From: Micromonospora ureilytica
Lineage (GTDB): Bacteria; Actinomycetota; Actinomycetes; Mycobacteriales; Micromonosporaceae
Direction of reading: 5' to 3'
NCBI RefSeq assembly: GCF_015751765.1
Contig: NZ_JADOTX010000001.1
Span: 4,030,001 to 4,094,000, forward strand
Length of the DNA stretch: 64,000 nt
The notes below the pieces were generated by a model that saw nothing but the letters and a program-made list of their open reading frames with translations, was not told where the DNA came from and did no database searches. Position numbers and translations under genes: made by a program. Positions 51,652-61,027 of this stretch are shown in pieces (position 1 is the stretch's first letter; the number at the start of each line of letters is the position of its first letter).

Positions 51652-53739
51652 CTACGTGACCGACATCACTCTGCCTTCGGGGTCCACGGGGCCCGGCAAC
51701 CCGGGGGTGGCCAGCCAACCCAGCAGCTCGCGGGCCGGACCGGCGGGCACGATCCGCAGCGCCTCTCGCGCCCGTTGGGCGTGTTCGGCGATCAGGCCGA
51801 GCAGACCGGCCACCCGGGGGTCGTCGGGCGCAACCGCCCCGGGCTGCGCCGCCCCACCCCACCGGGACGCCCCTGCCAGCTCCCGAAGCTGCTCGCCGAG
51901 GGCGTGGGCCGCGCCGACCTCACGACCGTACGTGGCCAGCGCGTTCACCACCGGAACCCGGGCGCCTCCGAGCCGGCCGCCGAGCCGACACGGCAACTCG
52001 AACGCGATGGCGGCGCGCCCGGCCAGGACGGCACCGCCGGCTCCCCCGCCCGACGACGGGTCGTCGCGCAACTCCTGAGCCCGACCTTCACAGGCCACTG
52101 TCAACGCCTCGGCGAACTCGGCGACCACCGGGCCGCCGCCCTGCGCGGCGAACTCGTACGCACGGGCCAACAGGAAGTCCGCGACCAACACCGCGAACCG
52201 GTTGCCCCACGGCGTCGGTCGGGGCCCGGTCGACCGGGGCTCCTCCCGGGCGCTGTCCACCGCCAGCCCGGCGAGCAAACCGAGGTCAACAGCTGCGGCG
52301 AGGGCGTGCCGAAGCGGATGCTCACGGCCCCCGACCGCCGCGGCGACCAGCAGCAGCACCGCCGGACGCAGCGAGAGGGTCGACAGGTCCTCGTCCACCC
52401 CGCCGAGCCGGACGAACATCGGCCAGTCCTCGCGTACGCAGCCGGCCAGCAGCTCGCCCACCGCCATGAGATCGCGCCGCAGGTCACGGGCGAGGCCCGG
52501 AGCTGGCTGGGGCAGCGGGTCCAGCAGGACACCCGCCCGCGCCCCGTCCGGGAAGAGCGCCAGCCGGCGGCAGAGGGCGAACAGTGGCCGGTCGTCGTCG
52601 AAGGTGGCGTCGAGCACCCGCCAGGCGAGCAGGTAGCGGCGCACCGAGTACCGGCCGGTCTCGAAGTAGCCGGACTGCCGGGCGGCGAGCTGCCGAGCGT
52701 ACGGAGCCGGGTCCACCGGTCCCGTCTCGGCGCGGCGGAGTGCCGTGTCGATCCGGTCGGCGGCGAGCAGGCCCGATTCCAGGGCGAAGCTGATGCCCTC
52801 ACCGGTGAACGGGCTCACCAGCCCCGCCGCGTCGCCGACCAGCAGCAGCCCTGGCACACCGCACCGGGACGGGTCGAAGTCCAACCGCAGTGGCGCACCG
52901 GTCATCGGTCCGGCCGGACGGGCCGCCCGGAACCGGTGGTCGGTCGCCACCAGCTCGGTGACGAAACGCTCGTACAGCACTCGGACGTTCTCCCGGTGGG
53001 TCGGGTCGAAGAGGCCCACGCCAACGTTTGCCGTCCCGTCGCCGACCGGAAACACCCAGCCGTAGGAGGGCAGCACCCGCCGGTCCGTGACGTCCGCCAG
53101 CGGAAGGTGGATCTCCAGCAACTCGTCGAGGTCCGCGATCTGGGTGAAGTAGCCCCGGACGGCGAACCCGGTCCATTCCCGGTCCGGGCTACGCAACCCG
53201 GCCTGGTGAGCCAGCCGCGAAGAGGCCCCGTCGGCGGCGACCACAGCCGGGGCACGCACCGGAAAACGGCGGCCCGCGTACTCGACCTGCACGCCGTGGA
53301 CCCCGGCGGCGCCGCCGAGCAGCCGGGTGGCACGTGCCCCGGTCCAGAGCACCGCGCCGGCGCGCACCGCCCGCCGGCACAGCACCGCGTCCAGCTCCAG
53401 CCGGGGCACCACCATGCCGTACCCGGTGCCGTCGGGGTCCTCGTAGTGGAAGTCGCGACCGCCCCGCCCGCGCATCCGGATCCGCACCCCGCCGACCCGC
53501 TGGGCACCCGTCAGCTCGTCGAGCACTCCCATGTCCGCGAGCAGACGTACGGCGCTGCGGGTCAGGCCGTCGCCGCAGCACTTGTCGCGGGGGAACTCGC
53601 GCCTGTCGATCAGCAGAACCCGGCGGCCCAGCACCGCCAGCCGGTAGGCCGCGGCGGCGCCGCCCGGGCCGGCGCCCACGACGACCGCGTCGAAGCCGTC
53701 GAGCCGGTCCGGGACCATCGGCGGGTCCGGCGTAGCCAT
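51652..53739 (-). CDS. Geranylgeranyl-reductase-family FAD enzyme fused to a pseudo-prenyl-synthase domain
   Basis: A 695-residue fusion. Residues 1-430 are a flavoprotein of the geranylgeranyl reductase family (GAGPGGAAAAYRLAVLGRR at 22-40, FPRDKCCGDGL, GWVFPVGDGTANVGVGLF, GLLLVGDAAGLVSPFTGEGI). From about residue 454 comes a second domain that aligns with the neighbouring prenyl diphosphate synthase: LRPAVLLLVAAAV, WG.RFAVLVADFLLARA, FELPCRLGGRLGGA, LATYGREVG. Both Asp-rich motifs are lost (VDSAREE near 492-500 where DDVMD is expected; GEQLR near 615 where DDALD is expected). The first domain probably reduces a prenyl chain, perhaps of menaquinone. The ATG is one base after the synthase stop. 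Confidence 0.88.
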   Translation of the reverse strand: MATPDPPMVPDRLDGFDAVVVGAGPGGAAAAYRLAVLGRRVLLIDRREFPRDKCCGDGLTRSAVRLLADMGVLDELTGAQRVGGVRIRMRGRGGRDFHYEDPDGTGYGMVVPRLELDAVLCRRAVRAGAVLWTGARATRLLGGAAGVHGVQVEYAGRRFPVRAPAVVAADGASSRLAHQAGLRSPDREWTGFAVRGYFTQIADLDELLEIHLPLADVTDRRVLPSYGWVFPVGDGTANVGVGLFDPTHRENVRVLYERFVTELVATDHRFRAARPAGPMTGAPLRLDFDPSRCGVPGLLLVGDAAGLVSPFTGEGISFALESGLLAADRIDTALRRAETGPVDPAPYARQLAARQSGYFETGRYSVRRYLLAWRVLDATFDDDRPLFALCRRLALFPDGARAGVLLDPLPQPAPGLARDLRRDLMAVGELLAGCVREDWPMFVRLGGVDEDLSTLSLRPAVLLLVAAAVGGREHPLRHALAAAVDLGLLAGLAVDSAREEPRSTGPRPTPWGNRFAVLVADFLLARAYEFAAQGGGPVVAEFAEALTVACEGRAQELRDDPSSGGGAGGAVLAGRAAIAFELPCRLGGRLGGARVPVVNALATYGREVGAAHALGEQLRELAGASRWGGAAQPGAVAPDDPRVAGLLGLIAEHAQRAREALRIVPAGPARELLGWLATPGLPGPVDPEGRVMSVT

Positions 53740-53740
53740 C

Positions 53741-54724
53741 TCAACCGGCCCTGGTGACGGCGTAGTCGGCGAGTCGGACCAGCGAGTCCCGGGCCGGGCC
53801 GGGCGGCAGCGGGTCGAGTCGCCGGGCGGCCCGAGCGGCACGGCTCCGGGCCTCGGCGAGGACCTCGTCCACGGCACCCGAAGCGACGACCAGCTCCGCC
53901 ACCTCGGCCAGCTCCGCCGGGGTGGGCTCGCGTACTTCCAGGAGGTCGCGTACCCGGCCGGCCGCCGGTGTGTCGCGGGCCAGCAGGCGCAGCACCGACA
54001 TGGTGTAGATCCCTTCTCGCACGTCCGTCAGTGGCCGCTTGCCGAGCGCCGCGTAGCTGCCGCGCACGTCGAGCGCGTCGTCGGCGAGCTGGAAGGCGAC
54101 GCCGAGGTCGTGGCCGTACCCGGCCAGCGCCTCGACGGTCGCCGGCGGCGCCCCGGCGAGCAGCGCGCCCAACCGGCAGGGCAACTCGAACAGGGTCGCT
54201 GTCTTGCCGGCGATGATCTCCAGGTGCTCCGCCTCGGTCAGCCCGGTGTGGAACGCGTTCTCCGTCTCGCGGAGCTGCCCGGTGCAGAGCGCGACCAGCG
54301 CCGCGGCCGCCTCCCGGCCGTACCTGTCGTCGAAGGCGGCGAGCAGGGCGATCGCCCGGGCCACCAGGAAGGTCCCGGCGACGACGGCCGCCGGCTCGCC
54401 CCATTCGGCGTTGACGCTGGGGCCGTGCCGCCGCGTGACGGCGCGGTCCATCACGTCGTCGTGGTAGAGCGAGGCCAGGTGCAGCAATTCCAGCGCCGCG
54501 GCGGCGTCGAGCAGATGTGCCGAACGGACGGTGCCGAATTCGGCCGCGACCAGCAGTAGCGCGGGACGGATCCGCTTGCCACCTCGGCGCTGCAGTGCCG
54601 TCGCCATCGCCCACAGCGCCGGGTCCGACGCTGCGACGGCGTCCCGCATCCGCCGGTCCAGGCCGGCCAGCGCCTCCCGGGTACGGGCGCTGGCCAGCCA
54701 GTCCAGTTCAGGTGCGTCACCCAC
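53741..54724 (-). CDS. trans-Prenyl diphosphate synthase
   Basis: A 327-residue polyprenyl diphosphate synthase of the FPP/GGPP/heptaprenyl family. It has GGKRIRPALLLVAAEFG, the first Asp-rich motif DDVMD (89-93) with RRHG after it, and the second motif DDALD (215-219), so it should be active. Small residues (Ala84, Ser85) before the first motif suggest a long-chain product. It is coupled to the downstream reductase fusion, as menJ and grcC1 are adjacent in M. tuberculosis, so a role in menaquinone side-chain synthesis is likely but inferred. GTG start overlapping the protease gene stop. Confidence 0.9.
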   Translation of the reverse strand: MGDAPELDWLASARTREALAGLDRRMRDAVAASDPALWAMATALQRRGGKRIRPALLLVAAEFGTVRSAHLLDAAAALELLHLASLYHDDVMDRAVTRRHGPSVNAEWGEPAAVVAGTFLVARAIALLAAFDDRYGREAAAALVALCTGQLRETENAFHTGLTEAEHLEIIAGKTATLFELPCRLGALLAGAPPATVEALAGYGHDLGVAFQLADDALDVRGSYAALGKRPLTDVREGIYTMSVLRLLARDTPAAGRVRDLLEVREPTPAELAEVAELVVASGAVDEVLAEARSRAARAARRLDPLPPGPARDSLVRLADYAVTRAG

Positions 54725-56255
54725 CGTGACCGGCGCTCCCACCGCCACCGCAGCCACAGCCGCCGTCGCCGCGCCGCCCACTGCCCGGAGCGCACAGAGT
54801 GGGCACCCGCTCGACCAACTCCTGCGCCTTCTGCAGCAGCTGCTCGTCGTCGAGCATCCGCAGGATCTCCATCGGAGTACGACCAACGGCGTCGTTCGCC
54901 AGCGCCAGCACCTCCTCGGCGGCGGAGAGTTCCTCGGTGGTCAACCGGTCCGCGAAGCGGCGCAGCGTCTTGCGGGCCTCGTCGATGTGCTCGGTGGTGA
55001 GCGTCGCCTCGGAACGCTGCGGCTGGAGCATCGCCGCGCGGGCCGTCTCGGCGTAGGTGTCGTAGAGCTTCTGCAGGTGCCGCCGGTCGGCGTCGGAGAG
55101 CTTCGTCGCCCGCGCCCGGGCGACCAGCCGGTCCTCGTTGGCGAAGTAGGTGTCGACAGCGAACCGGCCGACCCGGGTCTGCTGCAGGTAGCGCTGCCGG
55201 AACTCCTTCTCGACCGCCACATCGAGGTCGACGTCACGGTCCAGGACCCGGCGGGCGGTGCTGCTGGAGGCGCAGCCGCAGGCGCTCTCGTTGCCACCTT
55301 CGCCGCCCAGGTAGACCACCGACCCGGAGTCGCCACCCTCGGACAGGTGGGCGGTGGCGATCTGGCCCTCGAAGCTCAACACGCCGACGCCGGGGCCGTA
55401 GTCGATGCTCGCGCTGACATCCAGCTCGGTCACCGTGGAGGTGGTGTACTCCGTGGTCCGGCCGACCTTCTCCACATTGCTGCCGATGTCGACGCCGGCG
55501 ATGGCGTTCGCACCGCTCAGAAACGTCACGTCGAGCTGTTGCAGCACCTCGTCGATGGGGTTGATCAGGGTCCGGTTGCACGAGCCCGCGAAGAGCAGAC
55601 CGATCGCCGGGTGGTCGCTGTTGGCCACCGGGAAGATGTCGTCTTTCACCCGGTCGACCACGTCGTTGGGCTGGGAGACCTGGCCGATAGCGCAGTCCAC
55701 CCGATTGCCGGCCGCGTTGATCATGACGAATCGCTTGAGCGTGGCGATGGTGTCGGCCGGCGCGGTGCCGCCGTCGGCCGGGCCGGGCTGCACGATCGCG
55801 TCGCCGATCGCCCCGGCGTTCGAGTTGGCCAGCACGTGGTTGTTGCTCAGGATGCAGAGCGACCCGTCGGTGTTGTCGGTGACCAGCGCGCCGAGCGTGC
55901 CGGCCGTGACGTCGATGTGCGCGACGCTCACCCCGTTGGGCGCCGGGCGTTCCCGAGCGGTGAACTCCTGGGCGAAGAACGGGCCGGTCTCCACCACGTC
56001 GACCTCGACGAAGTCGGGCCCGAAGTAGACCCGCCGCGGCAGCAACCGGGTGGTCGGTAGGAACTGCCTCGGCACCTTGCGTACCACGTACACCACCAGG
56101 GCCGGCTCGTCCGTGCGGCGGCCGCTGACCTCCCGTCTGCCGTAGGCGAGGCCGCTGACGTTCGGGTCGCCCAGCAGCCCGGCCAGTGGTCCTCGACGGG
56201 CCGCCCGGGCCAACGCCCGGGCCTTGACGTAACTGTCGTCGTTGGAATTGGACAT
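54717..56255 (-). CDS. Trypsin-like serine protease, no signal peptide
   Basis: A 512-residue S1-like protease. The triad is visible: His140 in LCILSNNHVLAN, Asp187 in RVDCAIGQ and Ser310 in EGGDSGSVVY. The N-terminal 90 residues form a separate domain (VSGLAYGRREVSG, EPALVVYVVRKVPRQF) like the next gene upstream. The C-terminal 180 residues are helical and end in a Cys/Gly-rich tail (GCGCGGGG). No signal peptide is seen, so it is cytoplasmic or leaves the cell in another way. CAGGAGGC lies 5 nt before the ATG. It belongs to the cassette with the giant PKD protein. Confidence 0.8.
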   Translation of the reverse strand: MSNSNDDSYVKARALARAARRGPLAGLLGDPNVSGLAYGRREVSGRRTDEPALVVYVVRKVPRQFLPTTRLLPRRVYFGPDFVEVDVVETGPFFAQEFTARERPAPNGVSVAHIDVTAGTLGALVTDNTDGSLCILSNNHVLANSNAGAIGDAIVQPGPADGGTAPADTIATLKRFVMINAAGNRVDCAIGQVSQPNDVVDRVKDDIFPVANSDHPAIGLLFAGSCNRTLINPIDEVLQQLDVTFLSGANAIAGVDIGSNVEKVGRTTEYTTSTVTELDVSASIDYGPGVGVLSFEGQIATAHLSEGGDSGSVVYLGGEGGNESACGCASSSTARRVLDRDVDLDVAVEKEFRQRYLQQTRVGRFAVDTYFANEDRLVARARATKLSDADRRHLQKLYDTYAETARAAMLQPQRSEATLTTEHIDEARKTLRRFADRLTTEELSAAEEVLALANDAVGRTPMEILRMLDDEQLLQKAQELVERVPTLCAPGSGRRGDGGCGCGGGGSAGHGG

Positions 56256-56288
56256 GGCCGCCTCCTGCCGATGGAACGGGGTGATGGA

Positions 56289-56525
56289 TCAGGTTGGGCG
56301 GGCCTCGAACGGCCCGGTGAGCACGAAGCGCAGCGCGACACCGTCGACGCGCTCGCTGGTGCGGGCCACCAACACGGGGTCGGTGACGTAGACGGTGATG
56401 ACGTACGGTCCGGCCGGGTCGGGCCGACCGATGCCGGTGCCGACTGCGGCGAACCGTCGGGTGAGGTCAGCTCGGTGCGCGGCCAGCACGGCACGGACGG
56501 CGTCGAGCGAGCCAGGCTCAGCCAC
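56289..56525 (-). CDS. Small protein paralogous to the protease N-terminal domain
   Basis: A 78-residue protein. The stretch AAVGTGIGRPDPAGPYVITVYVTD matches the protease N-terminus (VSGLAYGRREVSG...EPALVVYVVRK) in pattern: G-x-G-R, then a short loop and a V-Y-V strand. It ends with VDGVALRFVLTGPFEARPT. It could be a free-standing pro-domain, an inhibitor or an adaptor for the protease 33 bp downstream. The start overlaps the end of the giant gene; GTG at 56525 is preferred, with a GTG at 56537 as alternative. Confidence 0.55.
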   Translation of the reverse strand: MAEPGSLDAVRAVLAAHRADLTRRFAAVGTGIGRPDPAGPYVITVYVTDPVLVARTSERVDGVALRFVLTGPFEARPT

Positions 56526-59500
56526 AGCAGCCGCCACGCAACGGCGGGTCGGATCGGCGCGCCGGGCCGGTCGCAGCGGGGTCGATCGGAACCGGGTGCG
56601 ACGTGGGGTCGCCGTGTTCGTCAGCGGAGTCGTCGTCCGGCCCGGAGGCGTCGGCGTACTCGGCGCAGAGCCGGACCAGCAGCCCTTCGGCCGACCGCCC
56701 GACGATCCGGACGGCGACGATGCCGGGGCCGGTGAGAGTCACCGTCGCCGGGCCCGGAGGCGAGTTCGCCGGCACGTCGACGCGGTCGAGTGGCGCACCG
56801 TCGTCGTCGAGCGCGGTCAGCTCGACCGGTTTGCCGCCCTGGTTGACCAGGGTGACGATGACCCGGTCCGCCGGGTGGGGCAGTCCGACCTGGACGCCGG
56901 CGCCGAGTTGCAGGGCCGCACCGCCGGTAGGCGGCCCGACCGCGACGACCACCCGGCCGACGCCGTCCACGGAACGGATGAGGAACTCGTGGTCCGTCCA
57001 CTCCGCCGGGAACTGGGTGCCGGGCTGCCGGCCGGCGAAGTCGAGGCAGTCACGCGGCCGTGGCGGCGGCGGCTCCGTCGGGCAGTACGGCTGCACGGCC
57101 AGCAGGTCCACGTCGTCGAACCACACCCGCCCGCCGCCCCTTCGGGGTTCACGCCCGTCGGCCACCGCCTCCAGGAAGACGGTCAGCGCGGCGGCCTGGG
57201 CAGCGACGCGTACCGTCAGCGGGCTCCACCGCTGGGCGCTCGTGCCGTCGCTCCAGACGACGGCGGCGGAGGTCGGGTCGGTGCCGCCGGTGGGGTCGAC
57301 GCCCAGCCGCGCGGTCGAGGGGTCGGCCTGGTCGAGGTCGTACCAGGCGGTGAGCTGGTAGGCCCAGCCCGGGTTGGCCCCGATCTGCTGCCGGACGCCG
57401 ACCCGTTGCTGCGGCCCAGGCACCAGCCCCTGTGCCCGGCGACCACCGTGCACCACGAAGTTGCTCGCGGCGTGCTGGCCGGTGCCGCCGGCCGCCGAGC
57501 CGGCGAGCACGTATGGCTCCCAGCCGTTGGCGACCTGTCCGGTGGTGCGCTGGGCGAACCCGTCCTCGAAATGCCGGTTGACCACGTCGACGGCCCGGAC
57601 CACCAACTCGTCGACACCTGTCCCGCCGTCGTCGTCGGTGACCGTGCACCGGGTCAGGAACGTTCCGCAGTCCGGGTAGCGGTGGGACAGCACGGCGGTC
57701 CCCCGGCCGATCGGCGGCTCGTGCGTCTCGTCGACCAGGGCCGGCAGCGGCGGGGTGCAGTCGCCGAAATCCCAGACCGCGGTGTGCGTGTCGCACCAGC
57801 CGGGATCGGTGAACCGGGCGGTGAGGGTCAGGACCGTGCAGGGGTAGGTGAACAGATCGGGGCCGGCATCGACCGTCGGCGGGACGTTGCGCACCGTCAC
57901 GGTTCGGGTGTCCGTCGCCATCCCGCCGTTCTGGTCCCGGACCCGCAGGGTCACCTCGTACACACCGTTGTCGCACCAGGCGTGCCGCACCGTGCTGGTG
58001 CCCTCGGCCCGGGGTGGGGTGTTGGTCTCCACGACCGTGCCCGGTTCGGTGGGTTGGGCGTCGCCGAAGTTCCAGGTGGTCTCGTGGGTGTCGGCGTACT
58101 CGACGTCGCTGAACCGGCCGACGAGCGTCACCACCTCACCCTCCTCGACGGTGAGGTCCGGGCCGGCGTCGACAGTGGGCGGCACGTTGGCGACGTACAC
58201 CAGCGCGAAGTGGCGGCTGGTGGCGCCGCCGGGCTGGTTGATCGTCAACGAGTGCGCCGCCAGGTAGGTGCCGCTGGCCGCGTAGACGTGGTTGACGTCC
58301 GCGGTGGCGGCCGGTCCCGCGCCGTCGCCGGTCAGCCAGGTGTAGCCGGCGGCGGCGCTGGTGTGCCCGGCGGCCAACAGGAGGGCCGACTGGGCCGTCC
58401 CGGTGTACGGCCCGCTGCTGCGGGCGGCGAGCACCTCGGTGCTCTCGCAGGAGCTGAGCACCTCCAGGTCGCCACCGAGGAGGAGCCCGTCGGCGTTGAT
58501 CACGATTGGGTCGAAGAAGACAGCCCTGACCCGCCCGATCCGGGCCAACTCGGGCGGCCAGCCGGTGATGCCGCTGACCGCTCCGGTGATCGGGTCGACA
58601 AGGCGCGACCCGCCGATGTTGTTGACCACGGCCGTGATCACCGCGGCGATCACGATGATGATGACCCCGATCAGGATGCTCCCGGCGCCGAAGCTGATGA
58701 TCGCCAAGATGATGGCGATGACCCAGAACAGGACCGACTCCTCGGGGTCGACGTCCGGCTCGCCGATCAGGTGGTTGTCCATCCGCTGGACCCCGTCGGG
58801 ATCGAGGTCGCCGCTCGGGGTCCAGTGCAGTCCCACGTCGGCCCGGAAGCTGGCGTCGACGTCGATGCTGCCGAGGATCGCGTCGATGACGGTCAGCTCT
58901 CCGGTCATCCGGATCGACCCGTCGCGGAGTACGACGTCCAACTCACGGACGTCCGCCTTGTCGTCGCCCTGGTCGACGCGGCGCGGCAGGTCGCTGTCCG
59001 CCCAACCGTTGGTGACCCGGGCGGAGTCGATGTTCTCCTGCACGATCGTCCCGTCGAGCAGGATGGCGAAGTCCCGACCGGCCGGTACGACGTTTGTCAT
59101 CGCCCCGATGTCGGCGCCCTCGCCGGCGTTGATCGCGATCACCAGCAGATCGGCGAAGACCCGGGTGGCGACGGTGTCGGCCTCGAACACCTCGCCACCG
59201 ACCTCCGGCGTCCACAGTGCCAGGAAGCCCCGCCCGACCAGGTCGCCGAAGAGCAGGTCGCCGATGGCCGTCTCGATCTGCGCCACGGTTGGCACCACCA
59301 CGCTCTGCGCCCCGAAGCCGTGCACCAGCGCCGCCCCCTGCTGGTTGAGCTGGGCTTGCAGCGCGTTGTCGAGGAATCCGAAGAGGGTGGCGTTGTTGGT
59401 GGTGAAGTGGGTGCCCTCGATGCCGGGTGCCGGGTTGATCGGTCCGGCGACCACGGTCGCGGTGTCGAACCGCAACGTGTACGCCCCCGGCGGGGTCTCC

Positions 59501-60291
59501 AGCGGCACCGTGATGGCGAGCCGGGTTTCCACAGCCATCGGGTCGGCCAGCGCGGGCGCCACGCCACTACCCACGATGTGGAACATCCGCAGGTAGACCG
59601 GCATGCTGATGAGGACGTGCCCCGGATCGGGCTGACTGACGTCGATCCGGTGGGCGGGGTCGGCCTGGTCGTCGTAGATCTCCAGGTGGGTGTCGAGGGT
59701 GTAACTGCCGACGCCGAGTCCCAGTACCAGCCCGGTGTCGTCCTGCTCGTGCGGGATCGCCGGGATACCGGGATGCAGCACGCCCCCGGGGCCGCCGTTC
59801 TCGTAGGCAGAGTGGACGTATTCGCCGAGGATCTGCACGAGCTTCGGGGCGAGAGGGTCGCCGCTGGTCAGAGTCGCGGTGACCGCGCTGCGGGGCAGGC
59901 CGTCAAAGCGCAGCCCCACGTTCTTCGAGTCGGGCAGCACCCCGATCGGCACGGCGGCATGCGCGGTGGCGGTGAGGTCCAGCAGTTGCGCGGATGGCAC
60001 CGGCGGGTCGGCGACGGTCACCTGGATGATCAAGCCGAAGGTGAGTTCGCAACCGTCGATGTCGGGCCGTGGGGTGGCGTCGAGCTGGTCCCGGGGGATC
60101 TCCACCTGGCCGCCGGCCGTGGTGAACCCGCCGATCCCGAGGCCGGCCGGGACCGGCAGGTATTGCGGGATACGTCCCTCGTCGGTGCTGGTGTCGCCAC
60201 ACTCGGCCGACTTCCAGGCGCCCTGCAGGGCCTTGCGGAGAACGGGCGGGGTCGCCTCGATGACGACCTCGAAGCCATGGGTGTCGGCCAT
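56518..60291 (-). CDS. Giant protein with possible TULIP-like lipid-binding part and PKD repeats
   Basis: A 1257-residue protein without a signal peptide. Residues 1-520 hold beta-rich sequence (FTTNNATLFGFLDNALQAQLN, VPAGRDFAILLDGTIV). They remind me of P47/OrfX-type TULIP proteins, but this is inference. A very hydrophobic stretch of about 40 residues (WVIAIILAIISFGAGSILIG, then VIIIVIAAVITAVV) follows near 520-560. Then come one PKD-like and two clear PKD domains (NVPPTVDAGPDL twice, WNFGD, WDFGD) and a C-terminal jelly-roll-like region (WFDDVDLLAV), ending in CCG. AAGGGGGA precedes the ATG. It overlaps the small gene and lies 113 bp after the 193-residue gene. Function unknown. Confidence 0.7.
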   Translation of the reverse strand: MADTHGFEVVIEATPPVLRKALQGAWKSAECGDTSTDEGRIPQYLPVPAGLGIGGFTTAGGQVEIPRDQLDATPRPDIDGCELTFGLIIQVTVADPPVPSAQLLDLTATAHAAVPIGVLPDSKNVGLRFDGLPRSAVTATLTSGDPLAPKLVQILGEYVHSAYENGGPGGVLHPGIPAIPHEQDDTGLVLGLGVGSYTLDTHLEIYDDQADPAHRIDVSQPDPGHVLISMPVYLRMFHIVGSGVAPALADPMAVETRLAITVPLETPPGAYTLRFDTATVVAGPINPAPGIEGTHFTTNNATLFGFLDNALQAQLNQQGAALVHGFGAQSVVVPTVAQIETAIGDLLFGDLVGRGFLALWTPEVGGEVFEADTVATRVFADLLVIAINAGEGADIGAMTNVVPAGRDFAILLDGTIVQENIDSARVTNGWADSDLPRRVDQGDDKADVRELDVVLRDGSIRMTGELTVIDAILGSIDVDASFRADVGLHWTPSGDLDPDGVQRMDNHLIGEPDVDPEESVLFWVIAIILAIISFGAGSILIGVIIIVIAAVITAVVNNIGGSRLVDPITGAVSGITGWPPELARIGRVRAVFFDPIVINADGLLLGGDLEVLSSCESTEVLAARSSGPYTGTAQSALLLAAGHTSAAAGYTWLTGDGAGPAATADVNHVYAASGTYLAAHSLTINQPGGATSRHFALVYVANVPPTVDAGPDLTVEEGEVVTLVGRFSDVEYADTHETTWNFGDAQPTEPGTVVETNTPPRAEGTSTVRHAWCDNGVYEVTLRVRDQNGGMATDTRTVTVRNVPPTVDAGPDLFTYPCTVLTLTARFTDPGWCDTHTAVWDFGDCTPPLPALVDETHEPPIGRGTAVLSHRYPDCGTFLTRCTVTDDDGGTGVDELVVRAVDVVNRHFEDGFAQRTTGQVANGWEPYVLAGSAAGGTGQHAASNFVVHGGRRAQGLVPGPQQRVGVRQQIGANPGWAYQLTAWYDLDQADPSTARLGVDPTGGTDPTSAAVVWSDGTSAQRWSPLTVRVAAQAAALTVFLEAVADGREPRRGGGRVWFDDVDLLAVQPYCPTEPPPPRPRDCLDFAGRQPGTQFPAEWTDHEFLIRSVDGVGRVVVAVGPPTGGAALQLGAGVQVGLPHPADRVIVTLVNQGGKPVELTALDDDGAPLDRVDVPANSPPGPATVTLTGPGIVAVRIVGRSAEGLLVRLCAEYADASGPDDDSADEHGDPTSHPVPIDPAATGPARRSDPPLRGGCCG

Positions 60292-60404
60292 TGGTCCCCC
60301 TTCGGGGCCGGTGTGGTGGAGGCCGGAGGGTGTGGACGGCCGGATGCCGGGCCGGACGTCGGGAGTTGCCTGGGACCGTCGCCGCGCGACGGGCCGCCTG
60401 TTGG

Positions 60405-60986
60405 TCAGCGGGGGTGGGTCTCGGGTTCCGGCTCCGGCGCTGGCGACTGGAGCCGGCCGGTCACCGCCGTCAACGGTGTGGTCACCGCACCGCTGAGGAT
60501 CGCGGCGAAGGCCCGCGGGGGCGCGAACCTCGGCCGGCGGGCGGAAACCCTCCGGTACTCCAGCAGCGGTTCCATCACCGGGTGCCGGTCCCGGAACGGT
60601 TCCAGCGGGTCGGGGCCGGCGCCGCCGGGCTGCCAGCGCGGCGGGTCGGTGTCCGGTTCATCACCGTCGGGGCAGGCCGGGAGCACGCCCAGGTCGGTCA
60701 GGAGCCGGCGGACGGTGGGGCCGTCGTCGGGGTCGACCTGACGATCGACAAGCCGGGCGATCGCGGTACGCAGCTCGGCGAGCTTCTCGGCGGCGGTCGG
60801 TCCGAGTCGGATGCGGTCGCCGATGCCGGTACGGGTGTCGGGGTTGAACTCGTAGCCGAGGTGCTCGACGGCCAGCAGCGGATTCGTGGCTGCCGCGATC
60901 GCGACGGCGGGAGCGGCATTCAGCCTGGCGAGGATCACGCCGGCGCGGGCCTGCAGGTCGGAGAAGGTGTTGATCTGGTCGACCAT
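60405..60986 (-). CDS. 193-residue protein of unknown family
   Basis: First gene of the cassette. The N-terminal 110 residues look helical (FSDLQARAGVILARLNAAP, AAEKLAELRTAIARLVDRQV). The remainder is Pro/Arg-rich, with the sequence EPFRDRHPVMEPLLEYRRVS and a Pro/Glu-rich end. There is no signal peptide or membrane helix. GGGAGA is 5 nt before the ATG, and a TAGGGT -10 box lies about 36 nt upstream. I recognise no family. Confidence 0.65.
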   Translation of the reverse strand: MVDQINTFSDLQARAGVILARLNAAPAVAIAAATNPLLAVEHLGYEFNPDTRTGIGDRIRLGPTAAEKLAELRTAIARLVDRQVDPDDGPTVRRLLTDLGVLPACPDGDEPDTDPPRWQPGGAGPDPLEPFRDRHPVMEPLLEYRRVSARRPRFAPPRAFAAILSGAVTTPLTAVTGRLQSPAPEPEPETHPR

Positions 60987-61021: not shown

Positions 61022-61027
61022 ACCCTA
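61022..61027 (-). promoter_or_regulatory. -10 box of the cassette
   Basis: TAGGGT on the minus strand, 35 nt before the ATG at 60986. It could drive the whole minus-strand run from 60986 to 51652, since no terminator was found within it. Confidence 0.4.

Follow-up and report, generated by a model that had tools for sequence, protein, structure and literature searches.

A six-gene Micromonospora operon that joins a predicted tandem TULIP protein to isoprenoid-synthesis genes, a polymerase-thumb-like partner and a protease

What might a bacterium do with a very large PKD-domain protein whose gene lies in tight array with a protease gene? The question is raised by a locus of Micromonospora ureilytica (genome of 7.1 Mb, single contig), found in a stretch of 64,000 nucleotides (contig NZ_JADOTX010000001.1, positions 4,030,001 to 4,094,000) that we call the window. 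An earlier note, made from the letters alone, had described the locus as a four-gene cassette encoding a protease, a 1257-residue protein (the giant), a 193-residue helper (P193) and a 78-residue small protein. We find that the unit is a co-directional block of six genes (51652-60986). The reading we prefer, with a probability of roughly 0.4, is an operon for a tandem-TULIP lipid carrier, accompanied by isoprenoid-making enzymes, a polymerase-thumb-like partner and a restrained protease, which together would load, mature and release the carrier. In order of transcription the genes, followed by the putative promoter element, are:

60405-60986, minus strand: P193 (helper), 193 aa; residues 58-153 have a predicted fold like the DNA polymerase I thumb, without the catalytic part
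56518-60291, minus strand: giant, 1257 aa; predicted tandem TULIP (1-610), hydrophobic hairpin at about 517-562, then three PKD domains
56289-56525, minus strand: small protein, 78 aa, GTG start at 56525; stand-alone NAL1_N-like protein
54717-56255, minus strand: protease, 512 aa; trypsin-like, N-terminal NAL1_N domain, GDSGS motif intact
53741-54724, minus strand: polyprenyl diphosphate synthase (PF00348), both DDxxD motifs
51652-53739, minus strand: geranylgeranyl-reductase-family flavoprotein (TIGR02032) with a fused second polyprenyl-synthase domain that lacks DDxxD
61022-61027, minus strand: TAGGGT, candidate -10 box of the operon

Extent of the operon and its empty site

The close packing claimed for the first four genes agrees with the coordinates of their open reading frames (ORFs): P193 and the giant are 113 bp apart, the giant and the small protein overlap by 8 nt, the GTG start of the latter overlapping the giant stop, and 33 bp separate the small protein from the protease. 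For the small protein we took the GTG at 56525 in place of the listed start (82 aa from 56537), and the synthase start was set at GTG 54724, the listed ORF extending to 54886. The TAGGGT box is present as described (61027-61022, 36 nt ahead of P193 by sequence inspection) and is a candidate promoter only. What had been overlooked are the two lipid-synthesis genes, for a polyprenyl diphosphate synthase and a member of the geranylgeranyl reductase family, which follow the protease in the same direction with no real gap. Thus, the unit does not end at the protease, and the interval previously assigned to the cassette (56289-60986) leaves out the protease itself.

The extent of the block is also delineated by its absence elsewhere. 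In all 18 Micromonospora relatives in which the region was examined (L088-L105), the block is missing and the flanking genes adjoin: a gene which, by eye, we take to be DUF402-like is directly followed by rpsP. The six genes of the window occupy exactly the interval between these two, the DUF402-like gene preceding P193. The examination was confined to the same genus, two relatives from other genera being set aside. In eight relatives, alignment to the right flank of the window picks up again no more than tens of bases from the reductase stop; hence the block without a counterpart in relatives ends after the reductase.

P193 was found in 5 of 160 species of Micromonospora, each time with the giant adjoining it. 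Such a patchy occurrence would suit unrelated neighbours or a decaying island. This explanation is barely credible, as it is already contradicted by the exact block at the empty site, by intact motifs and, as described below, by the same gene pairing across phyla and by correlated distances. We also considered a phage or plasmid origin of the giant and rejected it after obtaining no match in 72,556 plasmid records, 50,697 phage records or IMG/VR; a search of viral contigs with the protease gave no match, and a viral structure library gave no convincing match to the giant. A role in anti-phage defence was likewise rejected (no PADLOC match at E 1 for the four proteins of the earlier note).

The giant, its partner and the lipid enzymes

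Residues 1-610 of the giant are predicted to adopt a tandem TULIP (lipid-tube) fold. In the model, a helix wrapped in a twisted antiparallel sheet occurs twice in tandem and matches solved TULIPs, the nearest being P47/OrfX3, BPI and CETP; a TULIP fold in this half of the protein, for which a structural check had been proposed, is therefore borne out by prediction. The model alignments were hand-picked subsets of 66 rows for the giant (the window and 65 homologues) and 37 rows for P193. A hydrophobic membrane hairpin is predicted to be inserted in the second TULIP domain at about 517-562. It coincides with the hydrophobic stretch noticed before, and in 66 of 66 aligned sequences no other part of the protein is as hydrophobic. 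A signal-like N-terminus was seen in none of the 66 using a hydropathy window, which agrees with the signal peptide having been reported absent. The PKD domains start near residue 618, with more C-terminal sequence beyond them.

The hairpin in every sequence and the signal-like N-terminus in none would suit an intracellular isoprenoid-lipid body or membrane patch, in which the giant would act as a coat in the cytosol, held by its hairpin on locally made lipid and turned over by the protease and the small protein. Polyprenyl synthases and geranylgeranyl reductases are also expected in the cytosol. At the same time, PKD domains usually work outside the cell, and cysteine columns of the giant are lost in the same alignment rows, both of which argue against a purely cytosolic coat. 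We consider this alternative rather unlikely.

Despite the similarity of folds, membership of the giant in the P47 family was rejected on sequence grounds, since neither Pfam (no P47 match at E up to 1) nor a profile search at E up to 1, which matched PKD chains, produced a P47/OrfX match. Compared to P47, OrfX2 and OrfX3 of botulinum-type orfX clusters, to which it has no sequence-profile match, the giant adds a membrane hairpin and a PKD tail, its partner is a polymerase-thumb-like protein, and the operon has its own protease and lipid-synthesis genes. The main text of a paper on the orfX-p47 cluster contains, by term search, neither PKD nor prenyl (PMC7020563). BPI, CETP and juvenile-hormone-binding protein are eukaryotic TULIP lipid carriers, whereas the giant is bacterial, has 1257 aa and a hairpin, and is encoded in an operon with lipid enzymes; its own lipid binding is only predicted.

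The partner, P193, is related to the thumb of DNA polymerase I and exists as a protein on its own. In the predicted fold, residues 58-153 superpose on residues 457-544 of Taq polymerase, that is, on the thumb subdomain. Unlike the polymerase, P193 has no exonuclease, palm or fingers and no catalytic residues; it is a separate protein of 193 aa beside the giant, and the match ends near the thumb. In 214 of 294 genomes and in 279 of 396, the P193 profile gave nothing beyond a weak match at the thumb positions. We read these matches as Pol A from the matched region and from the ORF length (mostly about 850-1100 aa among the matches listed), even though the Pol A of the window genome itself was not matched at E 0.001. 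P193 does not qualify as an OrfX1-type TULIP-like small partner; its resemblance is to the Pol A thumb, the rest of the model having been barely compared.

The synthase matches PF00348 with E 5.8e-58. The first DDxxD motif is present in all 26 synthases of the cassettes described below, and the window synthase has both motifs. Its matches to NCBIfam prenyl synthases all fall below the cut-offs. The best score is to the family 2 encapsulin cargo polyprenyl transferase (NF041169, 212.6 bits versus a cut-off of 450), so that the synthase fails membership in this family; unlike in family 2 encapsulin systems, none of the six genes encodes a capsid protein by the family matches obtained. The reductase scores 202 bits with TIGR02032 (cut-off 158.8), a cut-off passed by all four cassette proteins tested. 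Its long ORF combines FAD_binding_3 with polyprenyl_synt (556-657), and DDxxD is absent from the latter, fused domain.

Spread across phyla and two cassette architectures

With giant residues 1-660 as the query, 81 homologues were found among the best 7995 candidates (those with most shared words). A scan of one genome per species (84,980 species) revealed relatives of the giant at 37 further loci in what we take to be Actinomycetota, Bacteroidota, Pseudomonadota, Gemmatimonadota, Chloroflexota and other phyla. Two peptide patterns were used to find these loci; therefore, the figures for rarity and phyla are lower bounds. Counts below are out of 38 loci (the window included), and ORFs were called by simple scripts. 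The giant is matched from residue 1-3 onward at 32 of the 37 loci and over a part only at five (L070-L073 and L075; from residue ~305, 591 or 619 on, in L075 the PKD region alone). Two loci, L046 and L074, have a giant that is divided between two frames, owing to either sequencing error or decay.

Judging by homology, the core of the operon recurs across phyla. P193 is present in 33 of the 38 loci, always immediately 5' of the giant and in the same orientation (5' of its first piece where the giant is split); the five loci without it are those with partial matches. A synthase is found in 26 loci, in 25 of them no more than 2.4 kb from the giant and in one at 4.3 kb; a reductase is found in 22, after separating cross-hits. 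The trypsin-like protease and the small protein occur in five loci each. In the reverse test, a P193 profile alone found full-length P193 in 2 of the 294 genomes of the family of genome G373 (G373 included), some genomes in this test being already known from the giant searches. All seven full-length P193 proteins from profile scans (five from Micromonospora and these two) adjoin a giant. More generally, a giant N-terminus lies beside 20 of 20 full-length P193 places checked and beside none of 12 weak matches checked. The distance matrices of the cassette families are strongly correlated, to which host relatedness may contribute; seven loci with split or distant giants (L046, L070-L075) were left out of these statistics.

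Two arrangements can be distinguished. Type a (eight loci) has the order P193, giant, protease, synthase, and reductase with the fused synthase domain. Of these, the three Micromonospora loci together with those of Dyadobacter and Flavivirga carry a trypsin-like protease; the loci of Massilia, Bradyrhizobium and Ruegeria (L042-L044) carry a subtilase. PF00082 was tested in the subtilases of L042 and L043, and L044 was grouped with these two. At 4.9 kb upstream, L041 and L056 contain ORFs that resemble subtilases more weakly. In type b, P193 and the giant are accompanied, in varying order, by the '246' protein, C245, a synthase and a mostly unfused reductase. The second half of '246' resembles the C-terminal domain of the giant. 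Both '246' and C245 come from other phyla (L047, L052, L061 and L062 among others). C245 is found in 18 loci (one cut by a contig end), none with a cassette protease, and four C245 proteins tested showed no Pfam family over the cut-off. The single type b synthase scored had a short-chain type as its best model, below the cut-off of that model. L074 has a synthase and a fused reductase and neither protease nor C245.

The distant giants of L070-L073, from Litoreibacter and proteobacterial metagenome-assembled genomes, represent a second architecture; those that are complete have 1560 and 1657 aa. P0108, a metagenome protein of 810 aa, combines a giant fragment with a reductase and a fused synthase domain, and is either a deletion or an assembly chimera.

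The protease slot and the weighing of the readings

The window protease matches NAL1_N (32 bits, cut-off 27), phrog_20754 'protease' (E 1.4e-54) and NARROW LEAF 1 chains (E 2e-6), and the GDSGS serine protease motif is intact in an alignment of five loci, as in NAL1-type proteases. It differs from NARROW LEAF 1 in a C-terminal tail beyond the protease part and in being encoded with a free second NAL1_N-like protein. Among 149 Actinomycetota genomes, six had a NAL1_N match, which in four of them was over the cut-off.

The small protein had been thought to copy the N-terminal domain of the protease. Against eight NAL1_N-type domains the comparison is positive (hhalign probability 91%, score 37.3; none of 100 column shuffles was as good, the best scoring 17.0). 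It is negative by Pfam, by a three-sequence protease profile and pairwise against the window protease itself, where the score was not above shuffles. The small protein thus appears to be homologous to the NAL1_N domain, the kind found at the protease N-terminus, and the earlier idea about it holds. Its nearest matches come from small actinobacterial genomes (L083, L085), in which NAL1_N stands alone as a protein of about 90 aa. In Dyadobacter and Flavivirga the small protein is encoded 3' of the reductase and starts, by eye, with a lipoprotein-like signal and Cys.

In the subtilase subtype, a C-terminal extension of the giant resembles the pro-domain-like N-terminal region of the subtilase (hhalign 90%, score 40.3; best of 100 shuffles 21.8). 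Ten giant C-termini were compared with subtilase N-termini, and the seven with the extension (L042, L044 and five further homologues whose gene neighbours are not known) made up the profile; L043, the L074 piece and P0070 have none. Crossed comparisons of the small protein or the extension with the domain type of the other protease were negative. By these alignments, both protease subtypes encode a second domain of the protease's N-terminal kind, either free or on the giant, except in L043.

Beyond gene content, conservation, the empty site and domain homologies, which the sequences show, and the folds, which are predicted, we infer cargo, docking, cleavage and export as follows. The synthase would make a polyprenyl diphosphate and the reductase would saturate it, and the motif-less synthase domain would keep the two enzymes together. 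This isoprenoid lipid, or a product of it, would fill the TULIP tube. P193 may hold the giant and keep it competent until it is loaded, and the hairpin may dock it on the membrane. The protease would then cut the giant or its hairpin region, so that the loaded carrier with its PKD tail is set free outside the cell, by a non-Sec route. Until then, a restraint on the protease may come from the free NAL1_N-like protein, and in the lineages with a subtilase from the pro-domain-like extension of the giant.

The same parts could also form a complex like those of OrfX/P47, secreted as an effector or for toxin delivery. In it, the TULIP protein would be a membrane-active effector or would carry one and would be activated by the protease, the small protein would protect the producer and the lipid genes would modify the producer's membrane. 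P47 and OrfX3 being the closest solved folds speaks for it, and the lipoprotein-like signal in Dyadobacter and Flavivirga would suit self-protection located in the envelope. Proteolytic activation has a precedent, for this reading as for the carrier, in orfX-cluster TULIP proteins, OrfX2 acting after proteolysis according to passages of PMC13030710. However, the giant lacks the P47 family match, and the lipid enzymes are more conserved companions of it than the protease. Moreover, among the 25 commonest of 133 Pfam families for 113 neighbour proteins there are no toxin genes, and the most widely matched family, whatever its kind, accounted for no more than two of the 113. On balance, an effector is rather unlikely.

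A number of observations weigh against the lipid-carrier operon. Only 8 of the 38 loci have a protease adjoining the giant (five trypsin-like, three subtilases), and in 18 loci C245 stands in its place, no locus having both. P193 and the giant occur with no synthase or other lipid gene within 3.5-10 kb on each side in L048, L056, L057, L060 and L068, and seven more loci lack a synthase, of which two are short contigs and five distant relatives. Among the three subtilase loci, L043 has a giant without the extension, and no inhibitor or pro-domain family was reported by Pfam at E up to 0.1 in the L044 giant or the L042 and L043 subtilases. The conserved cysteines 818, 882 and 1070 have no clean partner, and 942/945 form a CxxC, not present in the window, that could bind metal. 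Without a signal peptide, the giant may simply remain cytosolic. Finally, because no family matched more than two neighbour proteins, no export or modification gene recurs beside the cassettes among the 113 of 136 neighbours scanned (the other 23 were cassette proteins or doubtful ORFs).

The earlier interpretation as a whole is partly supported. A farther-reaching version of the lipid-carrier reading would be a bacterial analogue of lipoprotein carriers with its own isoprenoid lipid, a polymerase-thumb chaperone, a self-docking giant TULIP and non-Sec release by a restrained protease. Its core would have spread between phyla, and its protease would have been swapped between unrelated families with the second N-terminal-type domain kept. 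We regard this version as doubtful.

Each part belongs to a known fold or family. In open-licence PMC literature we found no described system in which a TULIP protein is combined with a polymerase-thumb partner, isoprenoid synthesis and a protease that has an additional domain of its N-terminal type; therefore, we rate as new the combination as a system and not the folds. Few bacterial TULIP families have been described, and their cargo is mostly not known; PMC6791001 lists P47, OrfX2, YceB, DUF4403, DUF2140 and DUF2993. Since the lipid-making genes adjoin the carrier gene, the cargo could be named by expressing the six genes. If the lipid-carrier reading is true, a polymerase thumb has been recruited as a lipid-carrier partner, and two unrelated proteases occupy the same slot under the same kind of control.

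Several individual neighbours deserve mention. Genes for a radical SAM protein, a 2OG-Fe(II) oxygenase and an aKG-HExxH peptide hydroxylase lie directly 5' of the Dyadobacter cassette (L041:5825-9366), a set that resembles a peptide-modification cluster. In the Massilia cassette L074, a protein with LanC-like and HopA1 domains is encoded between the giant and the reductase (L074:14800-17508). LytB (IspH; L046:3477-4478) and a Nudix protein, isopentenyl isomerase-like by eye (L045:8676-9215), lie beside two cassettes, and both fit isoprenoid supply.
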